Shown: positions 11,492 to 55,131 of the stretch, one piece after another
Layout: each line of letters begins with the position of its first letter
Numbering within the stretch: position 1 is the first letter of the stretch
NCBI GenBank assembly: GCA_016169945.1
Contig: JADLSH010000395.1
Location: forward strand, 134,501 to 198,500
DNA length: 64,000 nucleotides
Source of the DNA: Trachythela sp. YZ-2020
Lineage: Eukaryota > Cnidaria > Anthozoa > Malacalcyonacea > Clavulariidae
Direction of reading: 5' to 3'
The notes under the pieces: generated by a model
What the model saw: only the letters and a program-made list of their open reading frames with translations
The model's database searches: none
What the model was told of the DNA's origin: nothing
Program-made: the position numbers and the translations under genes

Positions 11492-12652
11492 GGGAATGGT
11501 AATATATGTCGTTTTCGAGCACCTTTTTGGGGGGAAGACGGAGTAGAGGGGAATAAAGGATGAGCATTTGGGTTGGCTCATGAACATTAGCATATGACGG
11601 GGGCCGCGTGATCTTTAGCATATGATGGGTGCTGCATGATCATTGACATAAACATTCATTAATTATGTAACTCGATCCTACTCCTTTGAGACCTCTCATC
11701 CCTGATTGGTATGAAGTCCAGAACAAAACCAGGCAAGTTTGGGCGAACAAAGAATAAATTTCCTGAGTGCCGCGTATTTTGTGTGTAAAAATATCGCATG
11801 TTCTTATTAGTAATAAATTCGTATCTTGTGACCTCTTTCTTTCGTAGACGACCAATATAGCGACGCTTAACGTAGTAAACTATTATTGCCTCATGCGAAG
11901 TAATAACAACAGAAATGTAGCTATCTAAAACGAGAAGATCTTAAAGTTTATCGGCATAGTACACGCAAGCGTTGCTAAGGTCTTATAGAGCAATGCAAAT
12001 ATATGTTTGCAAAGCCAATGTATAAACATTGTTCTTATAGTTGGTTTAAACATTAGTACAAAGTTTGACGCGTTATTTTTTTATAGCAAAATATGAAAGC
12101 AGCAATTTTTGAGCGAGATTTCAACAAGTTTTACAGGCATATACAAACATTGTATATAAGCATTAACGGTTGCTGTTTGTTTTTATGTAACTCGTAATTA
12201 AGATTTTCTAGCTTAAAAATTTGAATAAATGTAAAATATATAAATTTCGGACGGAAAAATATTGTACAATGTACATTGTTAGTTAGCACAGACAGAATTC
12301 ATTTTTAAACACATTTATTGCTTACAATTTATTTTACAACGCGCTAGTAACGTCTGCTCCCAAGAGCGTATAGTTTAGGTGTCTTTTGTATCTTTAAATA
12401 ATTGCTATATTCTTGTCTGTCTTCAAGTGATAATCTTGCAATATCGCAGCTTTCATAAGAATATATTTTGGTGTCTACCCAATTAATTAAATCTATTTTT
12501 AACAAAGTAAACAAGATCCACTCTGGGTCCGCTTCTAAGAGCATGTTATTCTTAAATTCCATCACTCGCTTGGGAGTATTTATTGTCCGAGTCAACCTCG
12601 TAGCTGCTTTTTTACCTTTTGACCATATCTTTCAATTTCTTATTATTTCAAC

Positions 12653-13160
<508 letters not shown>

Positions 13161-13265
13161 AATCTTTGACTCTGACTATCAACCAAGTTCCAAAATTGAA
13201 TCCTAAGGTTGAATATCGTTGAATCGTAAGAGTGAGCCTTTAAATCAGAGCAGAGCCTAGTATAT

Positions 13266-19777: not shown

Positions 19778-20803
19778 AACTATGCTTCAGCAGCCATCGT
19801 CAAGGTCTATTAAGCCCCTTGTAATTAAGGATTATACAAAGGTATATATTTATTTATATTTTTAAATTTCTATAGTTTTTGAATAAAAATAAAAATTGAC
19901 AAAATATCTGAGTTGGAAGAAAGAAAAAAATATAATGATGGTAACATTGGAGTTTTTGGGCTGGCTGCTAAAATACATGGAAGTCTCAAACACAAAAACC
20001 AAAAGGACAGAGCAAAGTGTCATTAGTTATTAAAGGAGTGTCCATAAGGAGAGGTGTAGATATTATCTTAAGGTTGGCAAGAGGAGTGGCAATGTGGAAT
20101 GACCAACCATGAATACGTAAACAAGAGGAGTAGAAATATGGAATGACCAACCATGAATACGTAAAGAAATTATAATATAGAATGTAATCACAGCAAAGCT
20201 CTGTACAAACATTATTGCAATCAGGGGCCTCCTAAAGACATATTAGCTACTATAAAACAATGCTTTACTCAGTTGTGTACATAAAATGTTTATCTATATT
20301 ATGTAAGAGTTGACTCCTGAAAGCCATTAAAGTATAGTTGATTCCATTTTGATCCTTGCCATATTAATACCTTTTCCACTTTAGACTGTTAAATGTGCTC
20401 TTATAGTTTGATCTTTTGATTAAATCTTGCTACTTTCTAGTACAACAACATTGACCATGTGTTAGCTGCTTGTATTTCAGACCATCTAGGTACTGCAAGG
20501 GAAGAATCTATGGCAGAAAATGTAATCATTGTAGCTCTTAATAATATAGAGTATATTAAATACTATTATTAATCCCTGTCCAGCAAAAATATCCCTACCG
20601 GCTATGTGTGAAACTTATTATATTATACGGATTCGATCGTCCAAAATATCTAATACAAAATTCAAGAATATAACCCGTTTCTGATTTGGACAAAAATATA
20701 CATTTATACAAACCTTTCTGCACAGTGAACAACGGTTAAATATACATGACATGGTGCACAGATCGGATCGATGGATATATATATATATATATCCATGGAA
20801 GCG

Positions 20804-20959
20804 ATAATGCAAAAGCTCACTTCCCTTGTGGTCGTTTGAGCACTCTGGCCCCAAGACACTTCACGCATGTCTGGATGCGCATGTGTCTGAGTATTGTACC
20901 ACATGCGCTTGGTGAGGGCAAGAGTATGGTGTATAAATACGAAGTCACTCGCATCTAGA
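20804..20959 (+). repeat. 156-bp direct repeat, copy 1, of the ribozyme cluster
   Basis: Nearly identical to 21,435-21,589, with few changes near the TATGGTGTATAAATACG segment. In this copy the repeat is followed directly by (AT)n, whereas copy 2 is followed by a hammerhead ribozyme and then (TA)n, so copy 1 appears to have lost its ribozyme. Both copies contain TATAAATA, a possible TATA box. Confidence 0.85.
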
Positions 20960-21086
20960 CACCTATATTCATATATATATATATATATATATATATCAAA
21001 TAGAGATCTTGTGTTTGTGTATCGAGAGTGCTCGATACCATCGGTAGAGCAAATGTATAAAATAACTGGACACGGTTACACTTTTG

Positions 21087-21156
21087 ACATTAGTTTATTG
21101 CATACAGTTCTGTTTCGTACAGGCGAACCTGCACTCATCAGTGCCAGACTAAATGT
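21087..21156 (-). ncRNA. Hammerhead ribozyme motif, type A, minus strand
   Basis: Exact reverse complement of the motif at 21,267-21,336. Read on the minus strand it has the CUGAUGA core (complement of 21,135-21,141), a 7-bp stem II capped by UUCG, GAAA (complement of 21,113-21,116), a 4-bp stem III with a 2-nt loop, and a cleavage trinucleotide GUA. Stem I is closed by pairs next to the core and by an outer ACAU-UAGU helix separated by an internal loop. All invariant core positions are present. Together with the plus copy it makes a long inverted repeat (21,053-21,366). Confidence 0.85.
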
Positions 21157-21266
21157 GAACCAATTAGCCTAAGTATATAATTTGATAATATTATAAGATA
21201 GGCCAAACTGAAACTAATCGGAAATGTAATATGACGCTTGTGGTGCTGTAGATATTTTTATAAGTC

Positions 21267-21336
21267 ACATTTAGTCTGGCACTGATGAGTGCAGGTTCGC
21301 CTGTACGAAACAGAACTGTATGCAATAAACTAATGT
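21267..21336 (+). ncRNA. Hammerhead ribozyme motif, type A, plus strand
   Basis: Core CUGAUGA at 21,282-21,288. Stem II is GTGCAGG (21,289-21,295), loop TTCG, CCTGTAC (21,300-21,306). GAAA lies at 21,307-21,310. Stem III is ACAG/CTGT with loop AA. The predicted cleavage is after GUA, between 21,320 and 21,321. Stem I pairs GCA (21,279-21,281) with TGC (21,321-21,323), then an internal loop, then 21,267-21,275 with 21,329-21,336. Order of stems is type I (open at stem I). The very short stem III is typical of metazoan retrozymes and Penelope-like elements, where cleavage may work as a dimer. A at the cleavage position is permitted but less common than C. Confidence 0.88.
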
Positions 21337-21434
21337 CAAAAGTGTAACCGTGTCCAGTTATTTTATATATATATATATGCTCCTTCACTTGTGTTGTTGA
21401 GCACTCTGTGAGGTTAATTGGTGGCTAATAAGCT

Positions 21435-21589
21435 ATAATGCAAAAGCTCACTTCCCTTGTGGTCGTTTGAGCACTCTGGCCCCAAGACACTTCACGCATG
21501 TCTGGATGCGCATGTGTCTGAGTATTGTACCACATGCGCTTGGGAGAGCAAGCGTATGGTGTATAAATACGAAGTCACTCGCATCTAGA
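21435..21589 (+). repeat. 155-bp direct repeat, copy 2, of the ribozyme cluster
   Basis: Matches 20,804-20,959. It runs directly into the type B hammerhead (21,595-21,652) and then (TA)n, so repeat plus ribozyme plus TA tail looks like one unit of about 240 bp. The TATAAATA at 21,561-21,570 sits about 35 bp before the ribozyme. Confidence 0.85.
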
Positions 21590-21594
21590 TTGCG

Positions 21595-21652
21595 TTACAA
21601 GCTGCACTGACGAGCCGTTGAACGGCGAAACATGCATGTCTGCAGATTTGAC
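21595..21652 (+). ncRNA. Hammerhead ribozyme motif, type B
   Basis: Core CUGACGA at 21,607-21,613. Stem II is GCCGT/ACGGC (21,614-21,618 with 21,622-21,626) and loop TGA. GAAA lies at 21,627-21,630. Stem III is ACAT/ATGT with loop GC. The cleavage triplet is GUC, with predicted cut between 21,640 and 21,641. Stem I is CTGCA (21,602-21,606) with TGCAG (21,641-21,645), extended by CAA/TTG across an internal loop. Every conserved core base and the preferred GUC are present. Stem sequences differ wholly from type A, so this is a separate ribozyme lineage. Confidence 0.88.
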
Positions 21653-21678
21653 TATATATATATATATATATATATATA
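21653..21678. repeat. (TA)n microsatellite after the type B hammerhead
   Basis: A run of about 13 TA units follows the ribozyme directly. Similar TA runs lie at 20,773-20,791, 20,971-20,996 and 21,362-21,378, each at an edge of a module in this cluster. Confidence 0.9.
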
Positions 21679-25369: not shown

Positions 25370-25975
25370 ATGAGCCAAATAAAATCACCCGACCCGCTTG
25401 ATTTCACAAAGGCTGATACTCGCTGGCCAGATTGGAAGAGACGTTTTGAGAGATATCGAATAGCAACAAAACAGTTTAAAGAAGACGAGGACATTCAAGT
25501 CAGCACACTTCTATACACTATGGGAAATGAAAGCGAGTACGTGTTTACCCAGTTTGCGTTGGACGAAAAAGAAGCGAAAGATTACGGATTCGTAGTCGAT
25601 AAATTCGACGGACATTTCAGACCAGAAAGAAATATTATTCACGAACGAGCTATGTTTCATCAAAGATCTCAACACAGTGGCGAACCGGCTGAAACTTACA
25701 TACGAAGTCTATACGAGATGGCCGAATATTGTGATTTTTGCACAGCGAAAGACGATTGTATTCGCGACAGACTCGTAATCGGTGTTCGTGACAAAGGCTT
25801 ATCTAAGCGTCTGCAGTTGAAAGAAAAGCTGACGCTTGCCGAAAGTGTGAAGATGGTGAGGCAATCCGAAATTATACAAGATCAACTTACAATACAAAAC
25901 GAAACGGCGAAGTCTATAGAAGAAGTTAATAAACAGAGATATCAAAAAGCGACCCCGAGAGAATTATACCCGTAA
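25370..25975 (+). CDS. gag: gag-like protein of gypsy element
   Basis: Codes for 201 residues. The N-terminal capsid-like part carries the WPDWKRRFERY motif near residue 22, then an AETYIRSLYEMAEYC stretch and a basic C-terminus. It lacks zinc knuckles, which lie in the next frame (+1) at about 26,022-26,115. The next frame is open from 25,920, so the two overlap by 56 nt. A +1 frameshift (as Ty3 uses) or a lesion would join them. The ATG at 25,370 follows an A-rich leader and is the first good start after the primer-binding site. Confidence 0.85.
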   Translation: MSQIKSPDPLDFTKADTRWPDWKRRFERYRIATKQFKEDEDIQVSTLLYTMGNESEYVFTQFALDEKEAKDYGFVVDKFDGHFRPERNIIHERAMFHQRSQHSGEPAETYIRSLYEMAEYCDFCTAKDDCIRDRLVIGVRDKGLSKRLQLKEKLTLAESVKMVRQSEIIQDQLTIQNETAKSIEEVNKQRYQKATPRELYP

Positions 25976-27467
25976 GAAAACCTTCAGTAATCGACGCCAA
26001 GCAGAAACGAAACAGAGCGAGTGTTCTCGATGTGGTTTAAGTCATGGATATTCGTGCCCTGCTAAGAACGCCAAATGCAATAAATGTAACAAGCCGGGTC
26101 ACTACGCGAGATGTTGCAAAACGAAGCAGTTAACCGAAGTTAGTTGCAGATATACGCAGAAGCCCGAAAGTTCGGAGGAAGATTTTTTCATCGGAACGAT
26201 AACTAACAACAAAGACGACCCGAGAAGATGGCTCGTTGATCTGCCAGTTAAGGGTCATAGCGTGAAGTTCAAGATAGACTCTGGTGCTGACGTATCGGTG
26301 ATGGCGCTGAGTGCCTACGAGAATATGCCTGACGCTCCAGCTTTGCGACCAACAAGCCACAGACTCAAAGGGGTCAACGGAGTATTAAAGTGCAAAGGAA
26401 CATTTTCATCTAACACAAAGTACCAAGGGAAACTATACACGTTTGACATTTATGTTACTGATTCGGAAAACAATTTACTTAGTAGAACGATGGCAGAGAA
26501 GATGAACTTGATTAAATTGAACATTCATGAAGTTCAAGTACGAAACCAAATAAGATTGACGAAGGGCGAACCCGTTAAAATACAACTGAGAGAAGGAGCT
26601 GTCCCATTCCATTGTAATACCGTCCGAAGAGTCCCAATACCACTCATGCCAAAAGTAAAGCAAGAATTAAAGCGCATGGAAGAAGCTGGTGTCATCGAGA
26701 AAGTCACTGAGCCCACTGATTGGTGTTCTCCGATGGTGGTGGTTCCAAAACAAACCGGTGATGCAAGGATCTGTGTGGATCTTCGGCGGCTGAACAGAGA
26801 AGTTCGACGTGAAAGATACGTTTTGCCAACGTTAGAGGACATGGTCACAAAGTTAAATGGTGCCATAGTCTTCACCCACCTTGACCTTACTTCAGGTTAC
26901 TACCACATCAAGTTGCATTCAGACAGCACCAAGCTAACGACGTTCATTACACCGTATGGGAGGTATTGCTTTGAGCGTCTTCCGTTTGGAATTTCCTCAG
27001 CAAGTGAGATCTTTCAGCGCCGAATGACAGAAACGTTGGAAGGTGTTGAGGGGGTTGAAGCATCTCAAGATGACATTCTTGTTGCTGGTCGCACCATGGA
27101 GGAGCACGACGAGAAGTTGAGGAAAGTCCTTGACGTTATTCAAGAGGCTGGTCTGAAGCTGAATCTGAAGAAGTGCGTGTGGCGGAAAACCGAACTTACC
27201 TTTTTAGGACACACGTTCAGCAAAGATGGTGTGCGTCCAGATCCCGCCAAGGTGAAAGCTATTGTTGACATGCGTGCACCTACCAGCGTCCATGAGCTAC
27301 AGCAGATTCGAGGAATGATCAATTACATTGGGATGTTCGTTCCAAATTTGGCAACAATAATGAAGCCAATGAACGACCTTTTGAAGAAAGATGTCCAGTG
27401 GTTGTGGGGACCAGCGCAAGAGAAGTCGTTGAAGGCGAAGTCAAGGAAGCCCTCGTTAATGCGATGA
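25920..27467 (+). pseudogene. pol: pol 5' part: zinc knuckles, protease, reverse transcriptase
   Basis: Open from 25,920, in the +1 frame relative to gag. Two knuckles occur at 26,022-26,115, the second a CX2CX4HX4C (CNKCNKPGHYARCC). Protease is marked by DSGADVSVM (26,278 onward). RT follows: an LDLTSGYYHIKL stretch with the first catalytic Asp, PFGISSASEIFQ, and ASQDDILVAG, where the catalytic pair DD is kept but the usual aromatic residue of YXDD is Ser. FLGHTFSKDGVRPDP marks the thumb/connection. The frame breaks near 27,430 by a one-base change and continues in the frame of 27,398-28,231. Confidence 0.9.
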
Positions 27468-28231
27468 CATTAATATTTTATGAACCTCGCAAACCCGTCA
27501 CTGTATCTGTCCATTGCAGTAGTTTTGGAATTGGAGCAGTTATCTTACAAGAAGAGAACAATCGATTGAAACCAATTGCTTTCGCGTCTCGTAGACTCCT
27601 GCCTGCTGAGAGCCGATATGCTCAGATTGTAAAAGAGTGTTTGGCTTCCGTTTGGGCGTGTGAGAAGTTCGACAGATATCTTCGAGGTCTACAAGAGTTC
27701 AAGCTGCTCACGGAACATAAGCCGCTGGTACCGTTGATCAATGGATCCGACCTAAACGCCGTCCCGATAAGATGTCAACGGTTGCTAATGCGACTGATGC
27801 GGCATAATCCGAAAGCGCAGCACGTACCCGGGAAAGAGCTGGTCGTCGCCGATACCCTTTCAAGGCATCCTTTGCCTACGTGTGACGAAGAAGATAAAAG
27901 AACAGTAGAAGAAGTGGGAATGTATGTCAACGAAGTCACGCGATCTTGGCCAGTATCGGATGTTCGTCTTGAGGAGATCAGAGAGGCGGCTGACAAAGAT
28001 TTGGTGATACAAGAAGCCATGAAGTTCACTGTTGATGGTTGGCCAACAAAGTCTTGCGACATCCCACGCGATCTCCATGATCTGTATTCCGTTCGATCGA
28101 ATCTTTCGGTGGCGGAAGGACTGTTGGTGTATAATGGGAGAATTGTCATTCCGAACGCCCTGCAGTCGACGATTTTGGAAGTAATCCATCATGGTCATCA
28201 GGGAATCACCAAGTGCAGCGAAAGAGCCTAA
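27398..28231 (+). pseudogene. pol: pol middle part: RNase H and integrase zinc-binding region
   Basis: RNase H: the usual DAS at the first active-site Asp reads HCS (His codon 27,512-27,514). The Glu of VKECLA is kept. The usual TDHKPL reads TEHKPL (27,713-27,715). The ADTLSRH Asp is kept. Two of four acidic positions are thus changed. Integrase begins with HxxxH in IHHGHQGITKC, but the frame ends at adjacent TAA TGA stops (28,229-28,234). The same frame then continues with the CEEC pair of the zinc finger at about 28,286-28,297. Confidence 0.88.
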
Positions 28232-28234
28232 TGA

Positions 28235-28510
28235 GCCGTTTGGTGGTTCGGTATCGGAAAAGATATCAAGAGTGTAGTCGGTCGATGTGAAGAGTGCCAG
28301 GTGAAAAAAGCAGCTCAGAGACGAGAACCGTTAACCTCGTCACCACTAACGAAAAGACCGTGGAACCGTATAGGTGTTGATCTCCTGGATTTCAAAGGAA
28401 AAACATTTCTTGTGGCAATGGACTATTATTCCCGATACCTAGAGATCATGGATTTGTCCAAAGCAACCTCATCTCTCGTGATAGCCAAGCTTAAAAGTAT
28501 TTTCCGCTAG
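28235..28510 (+). pseudogene. pol: pol: integrase core, first part
   Basis: Continues the 27,398 frame after the double stop. GRCEECQVKK completes the H2C2 zinc finger. The WNRIGVDLLDF stretch carries the first catalytic Asp and AMDYYSRY follows. The frame stops at 28,508-28,510, and the homologous reading continues one frame over. Confidence 0.85.
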
Positions 28511-29265
28511 AAGTCGTCAGTGACAACGGACCCCAGTTTTCGTCCGAGAGTTTCTCCAGTTTCGCGAAGAGCTATGGATTCAAGCATACTACGTCGAGTC
28601 CCTATTACCCACCGTCCAATGGGTTGGCCGAGAGTGCGGTGAAAACGGCGAAGAACATATTACGACAACAAGACCCGTGTCTTGCTCTGATGGTGTACAG
28701 ATCTACAACTGTAGGATCTACTGGTCATAGCACTTCAGAAGTCATGTTGAATCGTCGAATCAGAACCACTCTACCAGCGTTATCACAGAATGTCGAGCCT
28801 CGCATGTACGACGAAGACAAAGTGAAACAGAAACACGAAGCTAGCCAGAAGAGTAACGAGTTTTACTATAACAGACGGCATTCGTCCAGGTCGTTGCCAG
28901 TTTTGAAGAAGGGGGATCAAGTTCGAATCAAGACTGGAAAAGACTACGCATGGGGAAAACCAGCCGTCGTAGTTGGAACAGCCAACACACCTAGATCTTA
29001 TGATGTGCAAACAGATAATGGTGTTTTACGAAGGAACAGACGACACATTCTACGCATTCCAAGAGATGAGAGAGAAAAGCGTAGGGAAGAAGACGATGAA
29101 ATACTTCAAAGTACACACGAAGCAATAGCAGAGAACAACCATAACCCAGACCACGAAAGCCCTGTTCAAGCGATGTCAACACAGAGTCGGATTCCTGATA
29201 ACCCCAAAGGAACTCGGACAAGATCTGGAAGGCTAAGTATACCTCCAGACAGACTAAATCTTTGA
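28511..29265 (+). pseudogene. pol: pol: integrase core, second part, and C-terminal tail
   Basis: VVSDNGPQF (about 28,513) holds the second catalytic Asp and NGLAESAVKTAK (about 28,618) the catalytic Glu, so all three integrase acidic residues exist though in two frames. A KKGDQVRIKTG stretch and DNGVLRRNRRHI resemble the small C-terminal barrel. The tail is charged and ends with a TRSGR motif common in gypsy polyproteins. No second gene follows before the polypurine tract. Confidence 0.88.
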
Positions 29266-35355: not shown

Positions 35356-35827
35356 ATGATGATGGAGCTGTCGGTACTAATGACATGTTGACAGTACGTA
35401 CAAATTCATCCCATGCCAATGATGACATAGTGATCTAAAAAAAGAAAAAAGTCCAATGAAGTGCATATATTTAATTTAATAGAAACTTGAAAGTGTTTTG
35501 AACATGTACATAAAATATAGATCATAATGACTATGTAACAAAACAAATGAGTTCGGATGTGGCGGTTTTGCAATTTTTATACAGCTGCAATTTCATGATG
35601 ACGTCCTAACATAGGATAGCCTTAATATAGCCCTCTTTTACTCATGGCTTCAGGAAAGAGTTTTGCACATCAAAGGGTTATCCACACTACAATTTGCCTT
35701 GTCACTTATTTTCAATCCATTAGCTGAATTGCACCTTCTTGGTTTCAACTAACTGTGGAAGCTGATGCTTTGCAAAATTCCAAAAGGTCCCTTTTATGTC
35801 AGCCTTGATATCAGGCTTTATGCCAAA

Positions 35828-37720
35828 ACGACCTTGGACATACCACTCCAATTTGAATTAAATTATTTTTTTGCAAACATACATACCCAGACTCTATCAT
35901 TAAATATAAATTAGTTTGATTAGAAACAGTTTTGGGCCGATTTTAGGTCTTTGAAATTTAGATTGCGCAGTACAGCAATAATCTGCATTTTGACAAATTT
36001 GTATAAAATATAAAACCTCTACATTTTTATTGAAAACATTCCGAAACAAGTTATTGATACTATTATGGCTAAAAATTGTGTTTACATAGTTCGAAGTATA
36101 GTATATAAATATACTTCAAAGGGACATAATATATAAATGTTGGTTTTTTCAGTAAACAGTACATTGTAAATATTGGCAGAAATTGTGGTCAATTTTTAAA
36201 AATGATAAAAAACGACCTTGGACCTACCACTCCAATTTGAATTACATTACTTTTTGCAAATCTACATACCCAGACTCTATCCTTAAAGATAAATTATGTT
36301 GATCAGAAACAGTTCTGGGGTGATTTTAGGTCGTTGAAATTTAGATTGGGCTGTACAGCAATAATCTGCATTTTGGCAAATATGTGTAAAAATATAAAAC
36401 CTCTAAATTTTTATTGTGAACATTCCCAAACAAGCTATTGACTTGCTTGATATGGAAAGCAATGGCTACAAATCGTGTTTACGTAGTTCGAAGTGTAGTA
36501 TATAAATATATTTGAAAGGGACATAATATATAAATGTTGGTTTTGTCAGTAAACAGTACATTGTAAACATTGACAGAAATACGGGTAGTTTTTAAAAATG
36601 TTAAAAAACGACGTTGGACCTACCACTCCAATTTGAATTAAATTATATTTTTTGCAAACCTATATACTCAGACTCTATCCTCAAATATAAATTAGTTTGA
36701 TCAGAAACTGTCCTTGGCTGATTTTCAACTGTTATACTTTAGGTTAAGGAGCAGATCACTAAAATGCATTCTAATCATATAGTACTTAAATGAAAACATA
36801 TGGATTTCTGGAATAAAGAATGTTCAAACAGCTTTTAATCAGTGCTGATACTGAAAAATTGAGTAAGAGATATGTTTATATGACTTGAAGCACAACATCT
36901 CACTTTACTTTCCAAAAACAGGTACAAATATTGGGCTGTTCAATAAATACACACTATGAATATTGTAATTCTGATTGAATTTTAAAATGTTAAAAATAGA
37001 CTTTGGACCGACCACGCCAATTTTCAGTAAATAATTGTTTTTGCCAACTGTCAGACCCAGAGTCTATTGTAAAGGGCATTTCAGTTTGATCAGAAGCAGT
37101 TTTAGGATAATTTACAACTGCTGAAATCTGGTTCTTGCAATGGACTAATGTTGTCCAAATAATGCCAAATTTGGCAAGAACTATATTATATTTGAAACCC
37201 AATTTTGTGTTTGGATTTTGAATCTGTTGTATTTTTGGCAAAAAGTATATCTTATGAAACAGTATATGCAATGCAGTACAATCTGGTTTTAATCTCTTTT
37301 TTTTGGAAATAGTAAATATTGAAATCGTTTGCAAGAATGTGCAAAATTGATCTTGGACCAACGACCCAAATTTTCCTCAAAATATGATTTGCTGAAAGTA
37401 AAATATCCCAGCATTGCTATATATTATGATTTAGTCTGATCCGAAGCAGGTAACTAGATAAGAAATCAGCAAAATTACAACCATACCTTCCATGGTTCTG
37501 TGACACTGCAATCAAAACAAACGCCAGTATGACTTTACATCGCTTGTAATTCTTTGATTATTGTCAATTTTATCTTGTATAAAAACTCTTTCTTTCTTGA
37601 AGATCAAATAGATTATTTTTATACCAAAATTTTATTATCATCGAGTGGTTATTTGCGCTAAAAACCGCAGTGATAAAATTTACGATATGGAATGAGGCCG
37701 CCATATTGTCATTCCGACTT
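35828..37720. repeat. Satellite-like tandem repeat, about 390-bp unit (copy 1)
   Basis: Five diverged units start at about 35,828, 36,212, 36,608, 36,992 and 37,348, each opening with (A)AACGACCTTGGACCTACCAC or a relative. Within units the order is constant: TTGCAAAC...CCCAGACTCTATC...GATCAGAAACAGTT...TTTACAATAATCTGC-like blocks. Similarity falls from the first three units to the last two, which lean toward a GACTTTGGACCGACCAC variant. No gene is seen; minus-strand open frames are by-products. Confidence 0.8.
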
Positions 37721-38232: not shown

Positions 38233-38304
38233 GCCTCTGTAGCTCAGTTGGTTAGAGCGCTGCACCGGAATCGCAGGGCCGTGGGTTCAATTCCTGCCAG
38301 AGGA
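38233..38304 (+). tRNA. tRNA-like sequence, unit 1 (probably not a functional tRNA)
   Basis: A cloverleaf can be drawn: acceptor CCTCTG/CAGAGG (first pair G-A mismatched), D arm GCTC/GAGC, T arm GTGGG/CCTGC around TTCAATT. Internal promoter boxes look good (TAGCTCAGTTGG and GGTTCAATTCC). The anticodon loop CCGGAAT has C where U33 is required, and the anticodon stem has an A-C mismatch. The nominal anticodon GGA (Ser) would need a long variable arm that is absent. It is best read as a tRNA-derived, SINE-like head. Confidence 0.6.
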
Positions 38305-39424: not shown

Positions 39425-39481
39425 AACCCGCACACCCGATAACTTATATATACATAACTCACGGTTACAGCTCCGCAACTG

Positions 39482-39553
39482 GCCTCTGTAGCTCAGTTGG
39501 TCAGAGCGCTGAACCGGAATCGCAGGGCCGTGGGTTCAATTCCTGCCAGAGGA
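39482..39553 (+). tRNA. tRNA-like sequence, unit 2
   Basis: As in unit 1 but with GGTCAGAGC in the D arm and CTGAACC in the anticodon stem, which weakens that stem further. Confidence 0.55.
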
Positions 39554-39752
39554 CCTAGTGTTGTATTTTTCGCAACTGTTCCTGTTTAGGTCTTAAAATT
39601 GTGTATATATCTACTCACTTGGATTATCCACCAAACCCAGTATTCTAGTTCAACCAAGTGAAGTGCAAAACAATATTTGAAGTTTACCTTATCACAACCC
39701 GCACACCCGATAACCTATATATACAGAACTTACGGTTACAACTCAGCAACTG

Positions 39753-39824
39753 GCCTCTGTAGCTCAGTTGGTTAGAGCGCTGCACCGGAATCGCAGGGCC
39801 GTGGGTTCAATTCCTGCCAGAGGA
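39753..39824 (+). tRNA. tRNA-like sequence, unit 3
   Basis: Identical to unit 1 over the 72 nt. Confidence 0.6.
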
Positions 39825-40023
39825 CCTAGTGTTGCATTTTTCGCAACTGTTCCTGGTTAGGTCTTAAAATTGTGTATATATGTACTCACTTGGATTATCC
39901 ACCAAACCCAGTATTCTAGTTCAACCAAGTGAAGTGCAAAAAAATATTTGAAGTTTACCTTATCACAACCAGCACACCCGATAACCTATATATACAGAAC
40001 TTACTGTTACAGCTCAGCAACTG

Positions 40024-40095
40024 GCCTCTGTAGCTCAGTTGGTTAGAGCGCTGCACCGGAATCGCAGGGCCGTGGGTTCAATTCCTGCCAGAGGA
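40024..40095 (+). tRNA. tRNA-like sequence, unit 4
   Basis: Identical to unit 1 over the 72 nt, exactly 271 bp after unit 3. Confidence 0.6.
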
Positions 40096-40284
40096 CCTAG
40101 TGTTGCATTTTTCGCAACTGTTCCTGGTTAGGTCTTAAAATTGTGTATATATCTACTTACTTGGATTGTCCACCAAACCCAGTATTCTAGTTCAACCAAG
40201 TGAAGTGCAAAAAAATATTGAAATAATATAACGTCGTTCAGGAGCTTAATTTTTAGTTTAGGTCCTGCTATGTGATTGGATGAT

Positions 40285-44102: not shown

Positions 44103-45731
44103 ATGAATGATATTGAATATGATGTTGATAAAGTTAGAATGAAGTTCGGTGGCCATGTTGTTTCGAAGGTCTCGTTGGTCGTAGCTATTCTGCTCGTATT
44201 TGTTCTTGCTGTGGAAAGGTGCTGGCAAGGTGGGAAGAGAATTTCTTTGGGCGAACGACAGCGATGTCGTATTTACGTATTTGCGAGTACGGGCGATTAT
44301 TCTCGCTTCGATGGTTTTGCCGTGTCGAAAAAAGAAACGCTATTTTGGGTCTAGAATTCGCTATTACAACAATTCGCATGCATCTTTTCAGTTATTACGT
44401 CTAGCAATCTCTGGTGATACAAATCCAAATCCTGGCCCAGAGTTAGCTGGTAAGAAATATTCATGCACCATTTGTGATAAAACCTTAGCTCGAAATCAAA
44501 GAACGGCTGAATGCACAAGTTGTTGTTTAAAGTTCCATGTGAAATGTGGAAAAATATCATTGAAATATTACACAAGACTCAATAATGGTGAAAAATGAGT
44601 ATGTGCGTCTTGGTTATTTAAAGAACTACCAGGTAATGCTTGTTTTATGAGTAATGATTGTTTGGAAGTGGGAATTGATGATGACGAAACATGTGCAAAC
44701 GAATTTGCAAAAACCGATGCTGCTAGTATTCAAGAGATCGCTAAAAAGCACATTAAAAATTGTAAAATTGGCCATATAAATGCGAACAGCATTGCTGGTT
44801 TTAAACTTTATGAGATTAAACAGGGGCTGACACAAGGTTTATTTGATATACTTGTAATTACTGAAACGAAGGTTGATAAAACTTTCCCAAACAGTCATTT
44901 TCATGTTGACGGTTTTCGCGTTTGTAGACGTGACAGAAACTTCTATGGTGGGGGTATTATGATGTACATTAGGTGTGATATAATATATGAAAATATTACA
45001 CAAAGGACAGGTCAGCCAGCTGGAGTTGAGTATCTTGCATGTAAAGTTAAAATTGGTAAGGAATGGATTGTGATAATTGGGGTTTATAAACCACCGTCAT
45101 TAAAGCAAGCCCAATGGAAATTGGAGCTTGAAAATCTTTTTGAAATGGCTACAACCATAACAAACTATGCTATGATACTCGGGGATTTCAATTGCGATTT
45201 ACTGAAACCGGATAAGTCATCAAAATATGGACGTACCCTCCTTGATTAACTGGATATTTTCCATTTAGTAAACTTAATAAAAACCCCAACACGCATCACT
45301 AGTACTTCTGAGACTTTAATTGATTTAATTCTGACTAACAATAAGAAAATAGTTTTTATATCAGGCGTGTTTAACGCACAAATTAGCGACCATGTACTCG
45401 TTTACGCCGTATTGAGGTGGACAACTCCAAGGTTAAATTCACGGAAAATATGTACTAGAAGCTATAAAAACTTTGACAAGGATGCTTTGTTGAAACTTAC
45501 TGAAGACTGGCGCCAATCTCTAGATAACAAATAAATTGTCGCAGTTATATCGTTGGATTTATCTAAGGCATTTGATTGTATACCTCATAATTTACTCTTG
45601 GCAAAACTCAGGGCATATGGTGTTAGTGAACGTTCTGTAAGTTTATTAAGAAGCTATCTCGTTGGCCGGATGCAACGTGTGAAAATTGGCGATACATTTT
45701 CAAGTTGGGAATTAGTAAATTGGGGAGTTAC
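44103..45731 (+). pseudogene. LINE with PHD-like finger and endonuclease, copy 1, cut by duplication junction
   Basis: Counterpart of 53,821-55,447. It starts with the same N-terminus, then an extra base in the A-run near 44,330 shifts the frame. A stop lies at 44,596-44,598, another near 45,247 and another near 45,534. Recognisable parts are the cysteine finger (44,460-44,560), the endonuclease with GDFNCDLLKPDK and ISDHVLVYA, and the RT segment LDLSKAFDCIPHNLL. It ends at 45,731, where copy 2 of the duplication begins, before the catalytic YADD motif. Same internal loss of the RT fingers as copy 2. Confidence 0.88.
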
Positions 45732-46689: not shown

Positions 46690-48140
46690 TGTGGTCTATT
46701 TTTAAAATGTTAAAAAACGACCTTGGACACCACTCCAATTTGAATTAAATTATATTTTTTGCAAACATACATACCCAGACTCTATCATTAAATACAAATT
46801 AGTTTGATTAGAAACAGTTTTGGGCTGATTTTAGGTCTTTGGAATTTAGATTGCGCTGTACAGCAATAATCTGCATTTTGACAAATTTGTATAAAATATA
46901 AAACATCTACATTTTTATTGAAAACATTCCGAAACAAGTTATTGATACGCTTGATATAGAAAACAATGTCTATTATGGCTACAAATTGTGTTTACATAGT
47001 TCGAAGTATAGTATATAAATATACTTCAAAGGGACATAATATATAAATGTTGGTTTTGTCAGTATACAGTACATTGTAAATATTGGCAGAAATTGTGGTC
47101 GATTTTTAAAAATGATAAAAAACGACCTTGGACCTACCACTCCAATTTGAATTACATTACTTTTTGCAAATCTACATACCAAGGCTCTATCCTTAAAGAT
47201 AAATTAGGTTGATCAGAAACAGTTCTGGGGTGATTTTAGGTCGTTGAAATTTAGATTGGGCTGTACAGCAATAATCTGCATTTTGACAAATATGTATAAA
47301 AATATAAAACCTCTAAATTTTTATTGTGAACATTCCCAAACAAGCTATTGATATGCTTGATATGGAAAGCAATGGCTACAAATTGTGTTTACGTAGTTCG
47401 AAGTGTAGTATATAAATATATTTGAAAGGGACATAATATATAAATGTTGGTTTTGTCAGTAAACAGTACATTGTAAACATTGACAGAAATACGGGTAGTT
47501 TTTAAAAATGTTAAAAAACGACGTTGGACCTACCACTCCAATTTGAATTAAATTATATTTTTTGCAAACCTATATACTCAGACTCTATCCTTAAATATAA
47601 ATTAATTTGATCAGGGCTGTTCAATAAATACACACTATGAATATTGTAATTCTGATTGATTTTTAAAATGTTAAAAATAGACTTTGGACCGACCACTCCA
47701 ATTTTCAGTAAATAACTGTTTTTGCCAACTGTCAGACCCAGAGTCTATTGTAAAGGGCATTTCAGTTTGATCAGAAGCAGTTTTAGGATAATTTACAACT
47801 GCTGAAATCTGGTTCTTGCAATGGACTAATGTTGTCCAAATAATGCCAAATTTGGCAAGAACTATAATATATTTGAAACCCAATTTGGTGTTTGGATTTT
47901 GAACCTGTTGTATTTTTGGCAAAAAGTATATCTTATGAAACAGTATATACAATGCAGTACAATATTTCCAGTTAGTTTGAAAGATACAGCCAAAATTGCT
48001 GGTTTTAATCTCTTTTTTATGGAAATAGTAAATATTGAAATCGTTTGTAAGAATGTGCAAAATTGATCTTGGACCAACGACTCAAATTTTCCTCAAAATA
48101 TGATTTGCTGAAAGTAAAATAAATCCCAGCATTGTTATAT
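46690..48140. repeat. Satellite-like tandem repeat, about 390-bp unit (copy 2)
   Basis: Same array in the second duplication copy, units at about 46,716, 47,122, 47,518, 47,684 and 48,062. The short gap after 47,518 reflects a deletion of about 230 bp joining GATCAG to GGCTGTTCAATAAATAC. Confidence 0.8.
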
Positions 48141-53820: not shown

Positions 53821-55131
53821 ATGAATGATATTGAATATGATGTTGATAAAGTTAGAATGAAGTTCGGTGGCCATGTTGTTTCGAAGGTCTCGTTGGTCGT
53901 AGCTATTCTGCTCGTATTTGTTCTTGTTGTGGAAAGGTGCTGGCATGGTGGGAAGATAATTTATTTGGGCGAACGACAGCGATGTCGTATTTACGTATTT
54001 GCGAGTACGGGCGATTATTCTCGCTTTGATGGTTTTGCCCTGTCGAGAAAGAAACGCTATTTTGGGTCTAGAATTCGCTATTACAACAATTCGCATGCAT
54101 CTTTTCAGTTATTACGTCTAGCAATCTCTGGTGATAGAAATCCAAATCCTGGCCCAGAGTTAGCTGGTAAGAAATATTCATGCACCATTTGTGATAAAAC
54201 CTTAACTCGAAATCAAAGAACGGTTGAATGCACAAGTTGTTGTTTAAAGTTCCATGTGAAATGTGGAAAAATATCATTGAAATATTACACAAGACTCAAT
54301 GATGGTGAAAAATGGGTATGTGCGTCTTGTTTATTTAAAGAACTACCAGGTAATGCTTGTTTTATGAGTAATGATTGTTTGGAAGCGGGAATTGACGATG
54401 ATGAAACATGTGCAAACGAATTTGCAAAAACCGATGCTGCTAGTATTCAAGAGATCGCTAAAAAGCACATTAAAAATTGTAAAATTGGCCATATAAATGC
54501 GAACAGCATTGCTGGTTTTAAACTTTATGAGATTAAACAGTGGCTGACACAAGGTTTATTTGATATACTTGTAATTACTGAAACGAAGGTTGATAAAACT
54601 TTCCCAAACAGTCATTTTCATGTTGACGGTTTTCGCGTTTGTAGACGTGACAGAAACTTCTATGGTGGGGGTATTATGATGTACATTAGGTGTGATATAA
54701 TATATGAAAATATTACACAAAGGACAGGTCAGCCAGCTGGAGTTGAGTATCTTGCATGTAAAGTTAAAATTGGTAAGGAATGGATTGTGATAATTGGGGT
54801 TTATAAACCACCGTCATTAAAGCAAGCCCAATGGAAATTGGAGTTTGAAAATCTGTTTGAAATGGCTACAACCATAACAAACTATGCTATGATACTCGGG
54901 GATTTCAATTGCGATTTATTTAAACCGGATAAGTCATCAAAAGATGGACGTACACTCCATGATTTACTGGATATTTTCCATTTAGTAAACTTAATAAAAA
55001 CCCCAACACGCATCACTAGTACTTCTGAGACTTTAATTGATTTAATTCTGACTAACAATAAGAAAAGAGTTTTTATATCAGGCGTGTTTAACGCACAAAT
55101 TTGCGACCATGTACTCGTTTACGCATATTGA
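53821..55131 (+). CDS. LINE polyprotein N-terminal part: PHD-like finger and AP endonuclease
   Basis: 436 open codons. A hydrophobic segment VSLVVAILLVFVLVVERC lies near residues 22-39. A GDRNPNPGP motif near residue 106 is common at this place in CR1-like proteins. The cysteine-rich finger CTICDKTLTRNQRTVEC...CCLKFHVKC...CASC lies at about 120-170. The endonuclease has INANSIAG, LVITETKVDK (catalytic Glu), GGGIMMYIR, GVYKPPS, LGDFNCDLF, TLIDLILTN and a final DH (ICDHVLVYA, Cys where copy 1 has Ser). It stops by frame change at 55,129. CR1-like clade by inference. Confidence 0.88.
   Translation: MNDIEYDVDKVRMKFGGHVVSKVSLVVAILLVFVLVVERCWHGGKIIYLGERQRCRIYVFASTGDYSRFDGFALSRKKRYFGSRIRYYNNSHASFQLLRLAISGDRNPNPGPELAGKKYSCTICDKTLTRNQRTVECTSCCLKFHVKCGKISLKYYTRLNDGEKWVCASCLFKELPGNACFMSNDCLEAGIDDDETCANEFAKTDAASIQEIAKKHIKNCKIGHINANSIAGFKLYEIKQWLTQGLFDILVITETKVDKTFPNSHFHVDGFRVCRRDRNFYGGGIMMYIRCDIIYENITQRTGQPAGVEYLACKVKIGKEWIVIIGVYKPPSLKQAQWKLEFENLFEMATTITNYAMILGDFNCDLFKPDKSSKDGRTLHDLLDIFHLVNLIKTPTRITSTSETLIDLILTNNKKRVFISGVFNAQICDHVLVYAY

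Follow-up and report, generated by a model that had tools for sequence, protein, structure and literature searches.

The window, i.e., the whole stretch of 64,000 nucleotides analysed here (Trachythela sp. YZ-2020, contig JADLSH010000395.1), contains at 21267-21336 of the plus strand a sequence with the architecture of a hammerhead ribozyme. This raises two questions: to which element does this hammerhead, HHR-1, belong, and could cleavage by it play a part in the way that element inserts? The best explanation of the locus as a whole, in which we have high confidence, is that HHR-1 is the pLTR hammerhead of a Penelope-like element (PLE), here called PLE1, which is present as a gene-less head-to-head pair inside a dimer of another element, E2.

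A type I hammerhead and its mirror copy

HHR-1 carries the core sequences CUGAUGA (21282-21288) and GAAA (21307-21310) and the NUH site GUA (21318-21320), with a predicted cut at 21320|21321. The first-pass annotation had claimed a hammerhead with all core bases at this place, and the sequence, a structural descriptor, and a covariance model agree with it. The stem II that it described is also there: 7 bp, one of them G-U, capped by a UUCG loop. The bases that we take to make the known loop-loop contact are not obviously present in a UUCG tetraloop on such a stem. Its stem III of 4 bp with a 2-nt loop can be drawn on paper, but 3 bp (A-U, C-G, A-U) with a 4-nt loop is the likelier reading because the energy model rejects a 2-nt hairpin loop. 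Stem I has 3 bp (GCA/UGC), an asymmetric internal loop (CUG/AAUAA) that had been noted before, and then 8 bp with a bulge. Since stem I is the open helix, this is a type I hammerhead; the annotation headed it "Type A", and we know of no hammerhead class of that name. All parts of the definition are found in HHR-1: a CUGANGA and GAAA core, an NUH site, three helices, and an open helix I.

The descriptor required CUGANGA, GAAA, an NUH site, and at least 3 bp in each of stems I, II, and III. Random sequence matched to the dinucleotide make-up of the window (229 Mb, both strands counted) yielded 15 occurrences, i.e., 0.008 are expected per 64-kb window. The window contains three sites, two of which are mirror copies of one sequence. 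The mirror copy of HHR-1 lies on the minus strand at 21087-21156 (core from 21141 downwards, predicted cut at 21103|21102), as given by the descriptor, the covariance model, and an inverted repeat whose 106-nt arms (21053-21158 and 21265-21370) are 99% complementary. The remaining site is HHR-2, in E2. The first-pass annotation had neither the minus-strand copy, which makes the inverted repeat, nor HHR-2. We regard it as confirmed that HHR-1 looks, in its sequence, like a genuine hammerhead motif, predicted to cut its own RNA.

Covariance models and related hammerheads

The genome (578 Mb, 396 contigs) was searched with positions 21061-21364 of the window as query. This first search gave at least 94 HSPs (40 of the 83 candidates scored). 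We fetched 34 loci from it, named L followed by a number, which together with the window make 35 sources.

The first-pass annotation had proposed a covariance search with Rfam models. Over the window, the hammerhead families of Rfam 15 were all below their gathering scores, with 17.7 bits for Hammerhead_3 (cut-off 48.5). This silence says little because Rfam also reported zero hammerheads in 7 fetched loci (48.8 kb), though each of them holds copies that pass the descriptor or are near-identical. Hence, we set Rfam aside as the arbiter of HHR-1. Its score for MIR8562 (72.8 bits, cut-off 211) was read as the long hairpin, i.e., the inverted repeat. A leave-family-out model, for which we used five hammerhead families of the same genome but not that of HHR-1, did match both HHR-1 arms (30.8 bits, E 2.9e-6). 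HHR-2 matches the same model by construction, since its family was used in building it.

By our own grouping, which omits one singleton (L015, with a 1-bp stem III), the 34 fetched loci contain six hammerhead families. Four of these, HHR-3 to HHR-6, come in addition to HHR-1 and HHR-2 and occur in L010, L014, L018, L029, L031-L034, and other loci; HHR-3 is located in the repeat of another PLE, not of PLE1. Across families 2-6, bases change while pairing is kept, and three of five measures stand out. We found 92.4% of cells paired against 62.3% in shuffles, a percentage that is partly built in, given that these families were found by a pair-requiring descriptor. In addition, 42 cells changed on both sides against 13.2 in shuffles, and the covariation score was 0.852 against 0.248. 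The two other measures are not outstanding: 70 of 500 shuffles are as high for pairs with change on both sides, and 165 of 500 for further pair types. Exact-pattern scans of viral and prokaryote collections gave 0 matches.

Link of HHR-1 to an ORF-bearing Penelope-like retrotransposon

We defined the PLE1 "unit" as positions 21157-21370 of the window. There are 51 unit copies in the 35 sources, with an intact hammerhead core in 48 and identity over 71 nt in 36; the three copies without an intact core comprise one that is truncated and two with deletions (by eye). A P0143-like protein is encoded on the same strand directly before 27 of the 51 copies (or 27 of the 42 whose head is intact), with 0-60 nt between its C-terminus and the unit. 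One locus, L010, has the repeat on both sides of the ORF: a pLTR with HHR-1 (675-858) is followed by the ORF, split over two overlapping frames (940-2028 and 2018-2977) with RT and a GIY-YIG-like block, and by a pLTR with HHR-1 from 3008 on. About 2.4 kb separates the two predicted HHR-1 cuts, and the start codon follows the first of them after about 150 nt. Direct pLTRs around the ORF were found in L010, and the other ORF-linked copies show the 3' repeat only or inverted pairs. The fetched loci contain no full-length intact PLE1 ORF, that of L010 being in two frames and that of L022 being without its N-terminal part.

The L022 ORF (575 aa) was aligned with ten relatives, and the alignment contains FDxxxFYPSI, YRDDG, a Cys cluster, and the GIY-YIG-like block. 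We take RT motifs, Cys cluster, and GIY-YIG-like block to be the marks of Penelope-like elements. The AF2 model of the homologue P0143 (pLDDT 88.5) has telomerase TERT (3du5) as its best Foldseek match in the PDB, with an E of 6.7e-09; in the VIA list, telomerases are mixed with other reverse transcriptases rather than ranked ahead of them. The C-terminal part of the model gave no fold match, the residues spanned by at least a fifth of the rows being 10-475. The GIY-YIG-like block is conserved in the alignment and has its strand/helix order in the AF2 model, without a Pfam or fold match. Pfam gave zero matches for ten ORF pieces at E 0.001, and only sub-threshold unrelated names for five proteins at E 10. 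The named organisms among the 120 PLE relatives listed are the bryozoan Watersipora subatra and the coral Oculina patagonica. The position of the copies relative to PLE ORFs strongly supports the assignment of HHR-1 to the pLTR of an ORF-bearing Penelope-like retrotransposon, PLE1, which may be, or may have been, autonomous. The descent from such an element, as proposed in the first-pass annotation, is upheld by the copies directly behind PLE ORFs and by the locus with copies on both sides of one ORF.

The same ORF link contradicts another explanation, by which the window locus would be a published animal-type non-LTR retrozyme and HHR-1 would mark the monomers of a small tandem element with circular RNA. 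A type I hammerhead with a stem III would fit it, as would the 330-bp ORF-less tandem with HHR-1 at L040 and L062 (see below) and the neighbouring E2, which fits the published animal type and for which this explanation stands. However, the HHR-1 copies at the window locus are inverted, not in direct tandem, and the 27 units of 51 that directly follow a PLE ORF make a retrozyme origin of this locus very unlikely.

Head-to-head pairs and their tails

The window copy of PLE1, delimited by comparison with the genome copies, is a gene-less head-to-head pair of pLTRs with a tail on one arm only. The right copy (21157-21370, plus strand) is the unit itself, has no tail, and runs into (TA)n. The left copy (20994-21158, minus strand) is head-truncated, from unit position 109 on, and has a tail of about 57 nt (about 20997-21052) followed by (TA)n at 20971-20996. 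As (TA)n is present on both sides, any target-site duplication would be hidden. The 3' ends of PLE1 are mostly of two types, the unit end ...TTATTTTATA and the tail end ...CTATTTGATA about 57 nt further, with TA repeats after both. The distance from the HHR-1 cut to these usual ends is 50 nt and about 109 nt, respectively. A tail is present in 24 of the 51 unit copies, and (TA)n follows 38.

We identified 18 head-to-head pairs, 13 of them adjacent among the 51 copies and 5 more in a set of 12 loci, and zero tail-to-tail pairs of adjacent units among the 51 copies. Exactly one arm is tailed in 16 of 16 scorable pairs (L009, L013-L018, L023, L037, L042, L054, L055, L058-L060, and the window). 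The script had marked 12 of the 13 adjacent pairs as one-tailed; there were 11 after hand check, which with the 5 from the set of 12 loci makes 16. Two pairs were left out as unscorable, L032 (plus arm ending at unit position 195) and L033 (minus arm ending at unit position 190). In L059, the untailed arm lacks TA repeats and stops 4 nt before the end of the unit. Over about 6 kb, L016 and L017 agree to 99% and represent one duplicated insertion. Therefore, the 16 pairs correspond to at most 15 events.

A near-perfect inverted repeat with a short spacer could also belong to a MITE-like DNA transposon, with the hammerhead in its 106-bp terminal inverted repeats by coincidence. The copies make this extremely improbable: adjacent head-to-head pairs are only 13 among the 51 units, and constant-length copies with target duplications were not seen in the fetched loci. 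We rejected this explanation because the gap between the arms varies (about 0 to 1545 bp), the arm starts are ragged, and every scorable pair has its tail on one arm.

We propose that the window pair represents two cDNAs of PLE1 RNA, each of which would have been primed on one strand of a (TA)n tract that had been cut. One cDNA would have started at an inner site of the RNA (...TATTTTATA, without tail) and the other at an outer site (...TATTTGATA, tailed), and the two would have been joined at their heads. Every head-to-head insertion of PLE1 may have this origin, i.e., two cDNAs, one per target strand, from two start sites.

Predicted cleavage by HHR-1 and the ends of insertions

The ribozyme fold of the isolated HHR-1 (71 nt) lies 3.85 kcal/mol above the ensemble, and that of the isolated HHR-2 RNA 3.45 kcal/mol above it, in nearest-neighbour energies, which ignore core and tertiary stabilisation. 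Compared with shuffles, the isolated hammerhead RNAs have only a slight advantage in folding (z -1.06 to -1.67). A transcript of both arms is predicted to fold into a 106-bp hairpin of -207 kcal/mol, and in the model the ribozyme fold can be imposed on it only at a cost of about 82 kcal/mol. In read-through RNA, which would be locked as a hairpin, cleavage should be hindered by the inverted repeat. Either HHR-1 arm alone should be able to cleave. The earlier suggestion that HHR-1 cleaves perhaps only as a dimer is not borne out: the locus has no HHR-1 copies in direct tandem, and HHR-1 does possess a short stem III.

Random mutation of the core among copies had been named in the first-pass annotation as an argument against the ribozyme. 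Nearly all cores are intact, as given above, but core substitutions are not significantly rarer than those in the rest of the unit (3/797 against 35/6000, p 0.62, 69 aligned segments). The copies are young and show no sign of selection on the HHR-1 core after insertion.

Relative to the cut, the 5' ends of ORF-less copies are scattered between about -136 and +8, and no exact position stands out as a peak. Exact ends near the cut were found at -7, about -4 to 0, +1, +4, and about +8, and others at -31 to -136, in a search where 40 of 95 candidates were scored and short copies are under-represented. A few ends are thus near the cut, but they are scattered, and we do not claim that hammerhead cleavage set the 5' ends of insertions. 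Where a unit copy spans the HHR-1 cut, its source RNA was uncut, or rejoined, at this place. The lack of a peak at the cut agrees with the Anolis Poseidon element, in which hammerhead mutants insert normally in vitro and RNA ends at the hammerhead cut were not found in vivo (PMC11167929).

HHR-1 may be intact merely through recency, without cleavage in vivo. The absence of a selection signal between copies and of an insertion end clearly at the cut is consistent with this, and so are the Poseidon results (PMC11167929). We nevertheless consider it rather unlikely, as six families keep the fold despite sequence change, albeit found with a fold-requiring descriptor. The fold kept across the six families suggests that the hammerhead had a function in the source elements over a longer time.

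E2, a retrozyme-like element around the PLE1 pair

The E2 dimer consists of a 5'-truncated monomer without HHR-2 (20799-20959, plus strand, monomer positions 52-211), which is 97.5% identical to 21430-21589, and a complete monomer (21379-21653, plus strand), which ends at (TA)13 (21653-21678). Both have a TATA-like GTATAAATAC, at 20931 and 21561. HHR-2 (21602-21645, plus strand), identified with the descriptor, is a type I hammerhead with a CUGACGA core, a 5-bp stem II, a GUC site, and a predicted cut at 21640|21641. It differs in sequence from HHR-1 and has all core bases. The PLE1 pair lies inside the dimer: monomer 1 stops at position 211 (20959), monomer 2 starts at 21379, and the pair replaces the last 64 nt of monomer 1, i.e., its HHR-2.

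With 21379-21653 as query, 50 matching stretches of E2 were found in 21 of the 35 sources. Direct arrays with a period of about 282 bp occur in six loci (L015, L022, L026, L031, L037, and L039), with a first monomer that is mostly truncated; the L022 array begins at the edge of the fetched stretch. Of the 50 stretches, 38 extend to a shared 3' end located 13 nt downstream of the HHR-2 cut and 12 stop short; (AT)3 or more follows in 35 of the 38. The HHR-2 core is intact in 37 of 44 copies in the 35 sources. E2 has head-to-head neighbours in L037 and L041, and one tail-to-tail neighbour, with a 50-nt fragment, in L011. The window copy has zero ORFs of 100 aa or more. E2 has the layout of a retrozyme: a short direct tandem (150-450 bp), a type I hammerhead, and no ORF. 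In L023 and L039, E2 sits in (TA)n behind a neighbouring PLE. We rejected the idea that E2 is the pLTR of this PLE, since a different repeat, carrying a third hammerhead, belongs to it.

E2 and PLE1 are alike in their target type, their head-to-head pairs, and a motif, GCTC-N-GAGCACTC, common to PLE families. The motif is found at 21378-21406 (plus strand), with further E2 copies at 20814-20845 and 21445-21476, and inside the PLE1 tail at 21026-21051 (minus strand, GAGCACTC from 21033 downwards). NGCTC-N-GAGCACTC occurs 99 times across the 35 sources: each complete E2 monomer has two, and others are in the tail and 5' leader of PLE1 and in the repeat that belongs to a different PLE; since the loci were selected, this count shows sharing, not enrichment. 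PLE proteins may mobilise E2. The window places side by side two element types that are suspected of being linked.

Other repeats are present in the window. A long hexanucleotide array (12651-13179) can be read as a repetitive ORF on both strands. Gypsy-type retrotransposon ORFs with RVT_1 and RNase H (Pfam) lie at 25370-29265, and the closest protein among the matches listed is 91% identical. A 271-bp tandem array (39425-40219) has a tRNA-Ser-like (GGA) sequence per unit, with single copies at 38233 and 49791. Tandem repeats of about 383/405 bp are alike at 35825-36725 and 46701-47614, as are LINE-type ORFs at 44200-45249 and 53821-55131. With about 10 kb between the members of each similar pair, these repeats and ORFs point to a local duplication.

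A possible step from a Penelope-like element to a retrozyme

An ORF-less 330-bp direct dimer, with one HHR-1 per monomer, is present at L040:3006-3559 and L062:150-860. Its monomer comprises PLE1 unit positions 60-214, the tail, the 5' leader, and codons 1-23, and has an internal deletion. The two loci are on two contigs and share their flanks, and we counted them as one insertion event. With the size and layout of a retrozyme, this array is a possible step from PLE to retrozyme. We found no report of such a step in the titles and abstract openings of a mostly open-access collection. The enzyme that mobilises animal retrozymes has been left open, PLEs being a strong candidate from shared features and co-existence (PMC7229834, PMC7761336).

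These observations can be joined into one tentative scheme, to which we give somewhat less than an even chance, in which retrozymes and PLEs form a single mobilisation system. PLE proteins would use a shared cis-signal, GCTC-loop-GAGCACTC, located in PLE1 near a TATTTKATA start site, on both PLE1 and E2 RNA, and would insert copies of PLE and E2 RNA into (TA)n. Each target strand would receive its own cDNA, started at a different RNA site from the other, and the two would make up a head-to-head insertion. Loss of the ORF from a PLE would give rise to a new retrozyme, of which the 330-bp array of L040 and L062 would be an example. One genome holds an ORF-bearing PLE, its ORF-less tandem derivative, and the independent retrozyme-like E2, and the proposed link between PLEs and retrozymes becomes testable within one species.

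Comparison with known systems

Animal non-LTR retrozymes resemble E2, an ORF-less direct tandem of about 282 bp in which every complete monomer has a single type I hammerhead (PMC7229834). E2 differs from those described there in having the GCTC...GAGCACTC motif of the local PLEs and a (TA)n site, and in occurring also in head-to-head pairs (L037, L041). Its GC content of 0.48 is above the <45% given in the legend of Figure 1C of PMC7229834 and under the <50% given in its text. The SMalpha and W-element of Schistosoma, compared by description, are likewise small mobile repeats that carry a type I hammerhead; they differ in that a link to PLE ORFs is not mentioned in the available parts of PMC8490949.

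PLE hammerheads are usually minimal, without helix III and tertiary contacts, and HHR-1 is unusual among them in that it possesses helix III and its stem I is extended (PMC6155905, PMC7761336). In other respects, PLE1 is close to Poseidon and to the Penelopes of Adineta vaga, which share with it a telomerase-related RT with a C-terminal block, in PLE1 a putative GIY-YIG-like one, a pLTR hammerhead, 5' truncation, an AT-rich target, and head-to-head inverted pLTRs with an optional tail on one (PMC11167929, PMC3846280). The A. vaga Penelopes are also described with a TATA box (PMC3846280). The tail of about 57 nt in PLE1 compares with 31 bp in A. vaga Pen2a (PMC3846280) and with 30-40 bp according to PMC11167929. 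The ORF of Anolis Poseidon starts inside the hammerhead (PMC11167929), whereas in PLE1 (L010) the cut is about 150 nt upstream of the start codon. In vitro, Anolis Poseidon uses two internal start sites and AT-rich targets, and both target strands are extended; a start-site difference between the strands was not seen there (PMC11167929), whereas the arms of PLE1 differ in all 16 scorable pairs. This rule of one tail per inverted pair constrains models of PLE integration.
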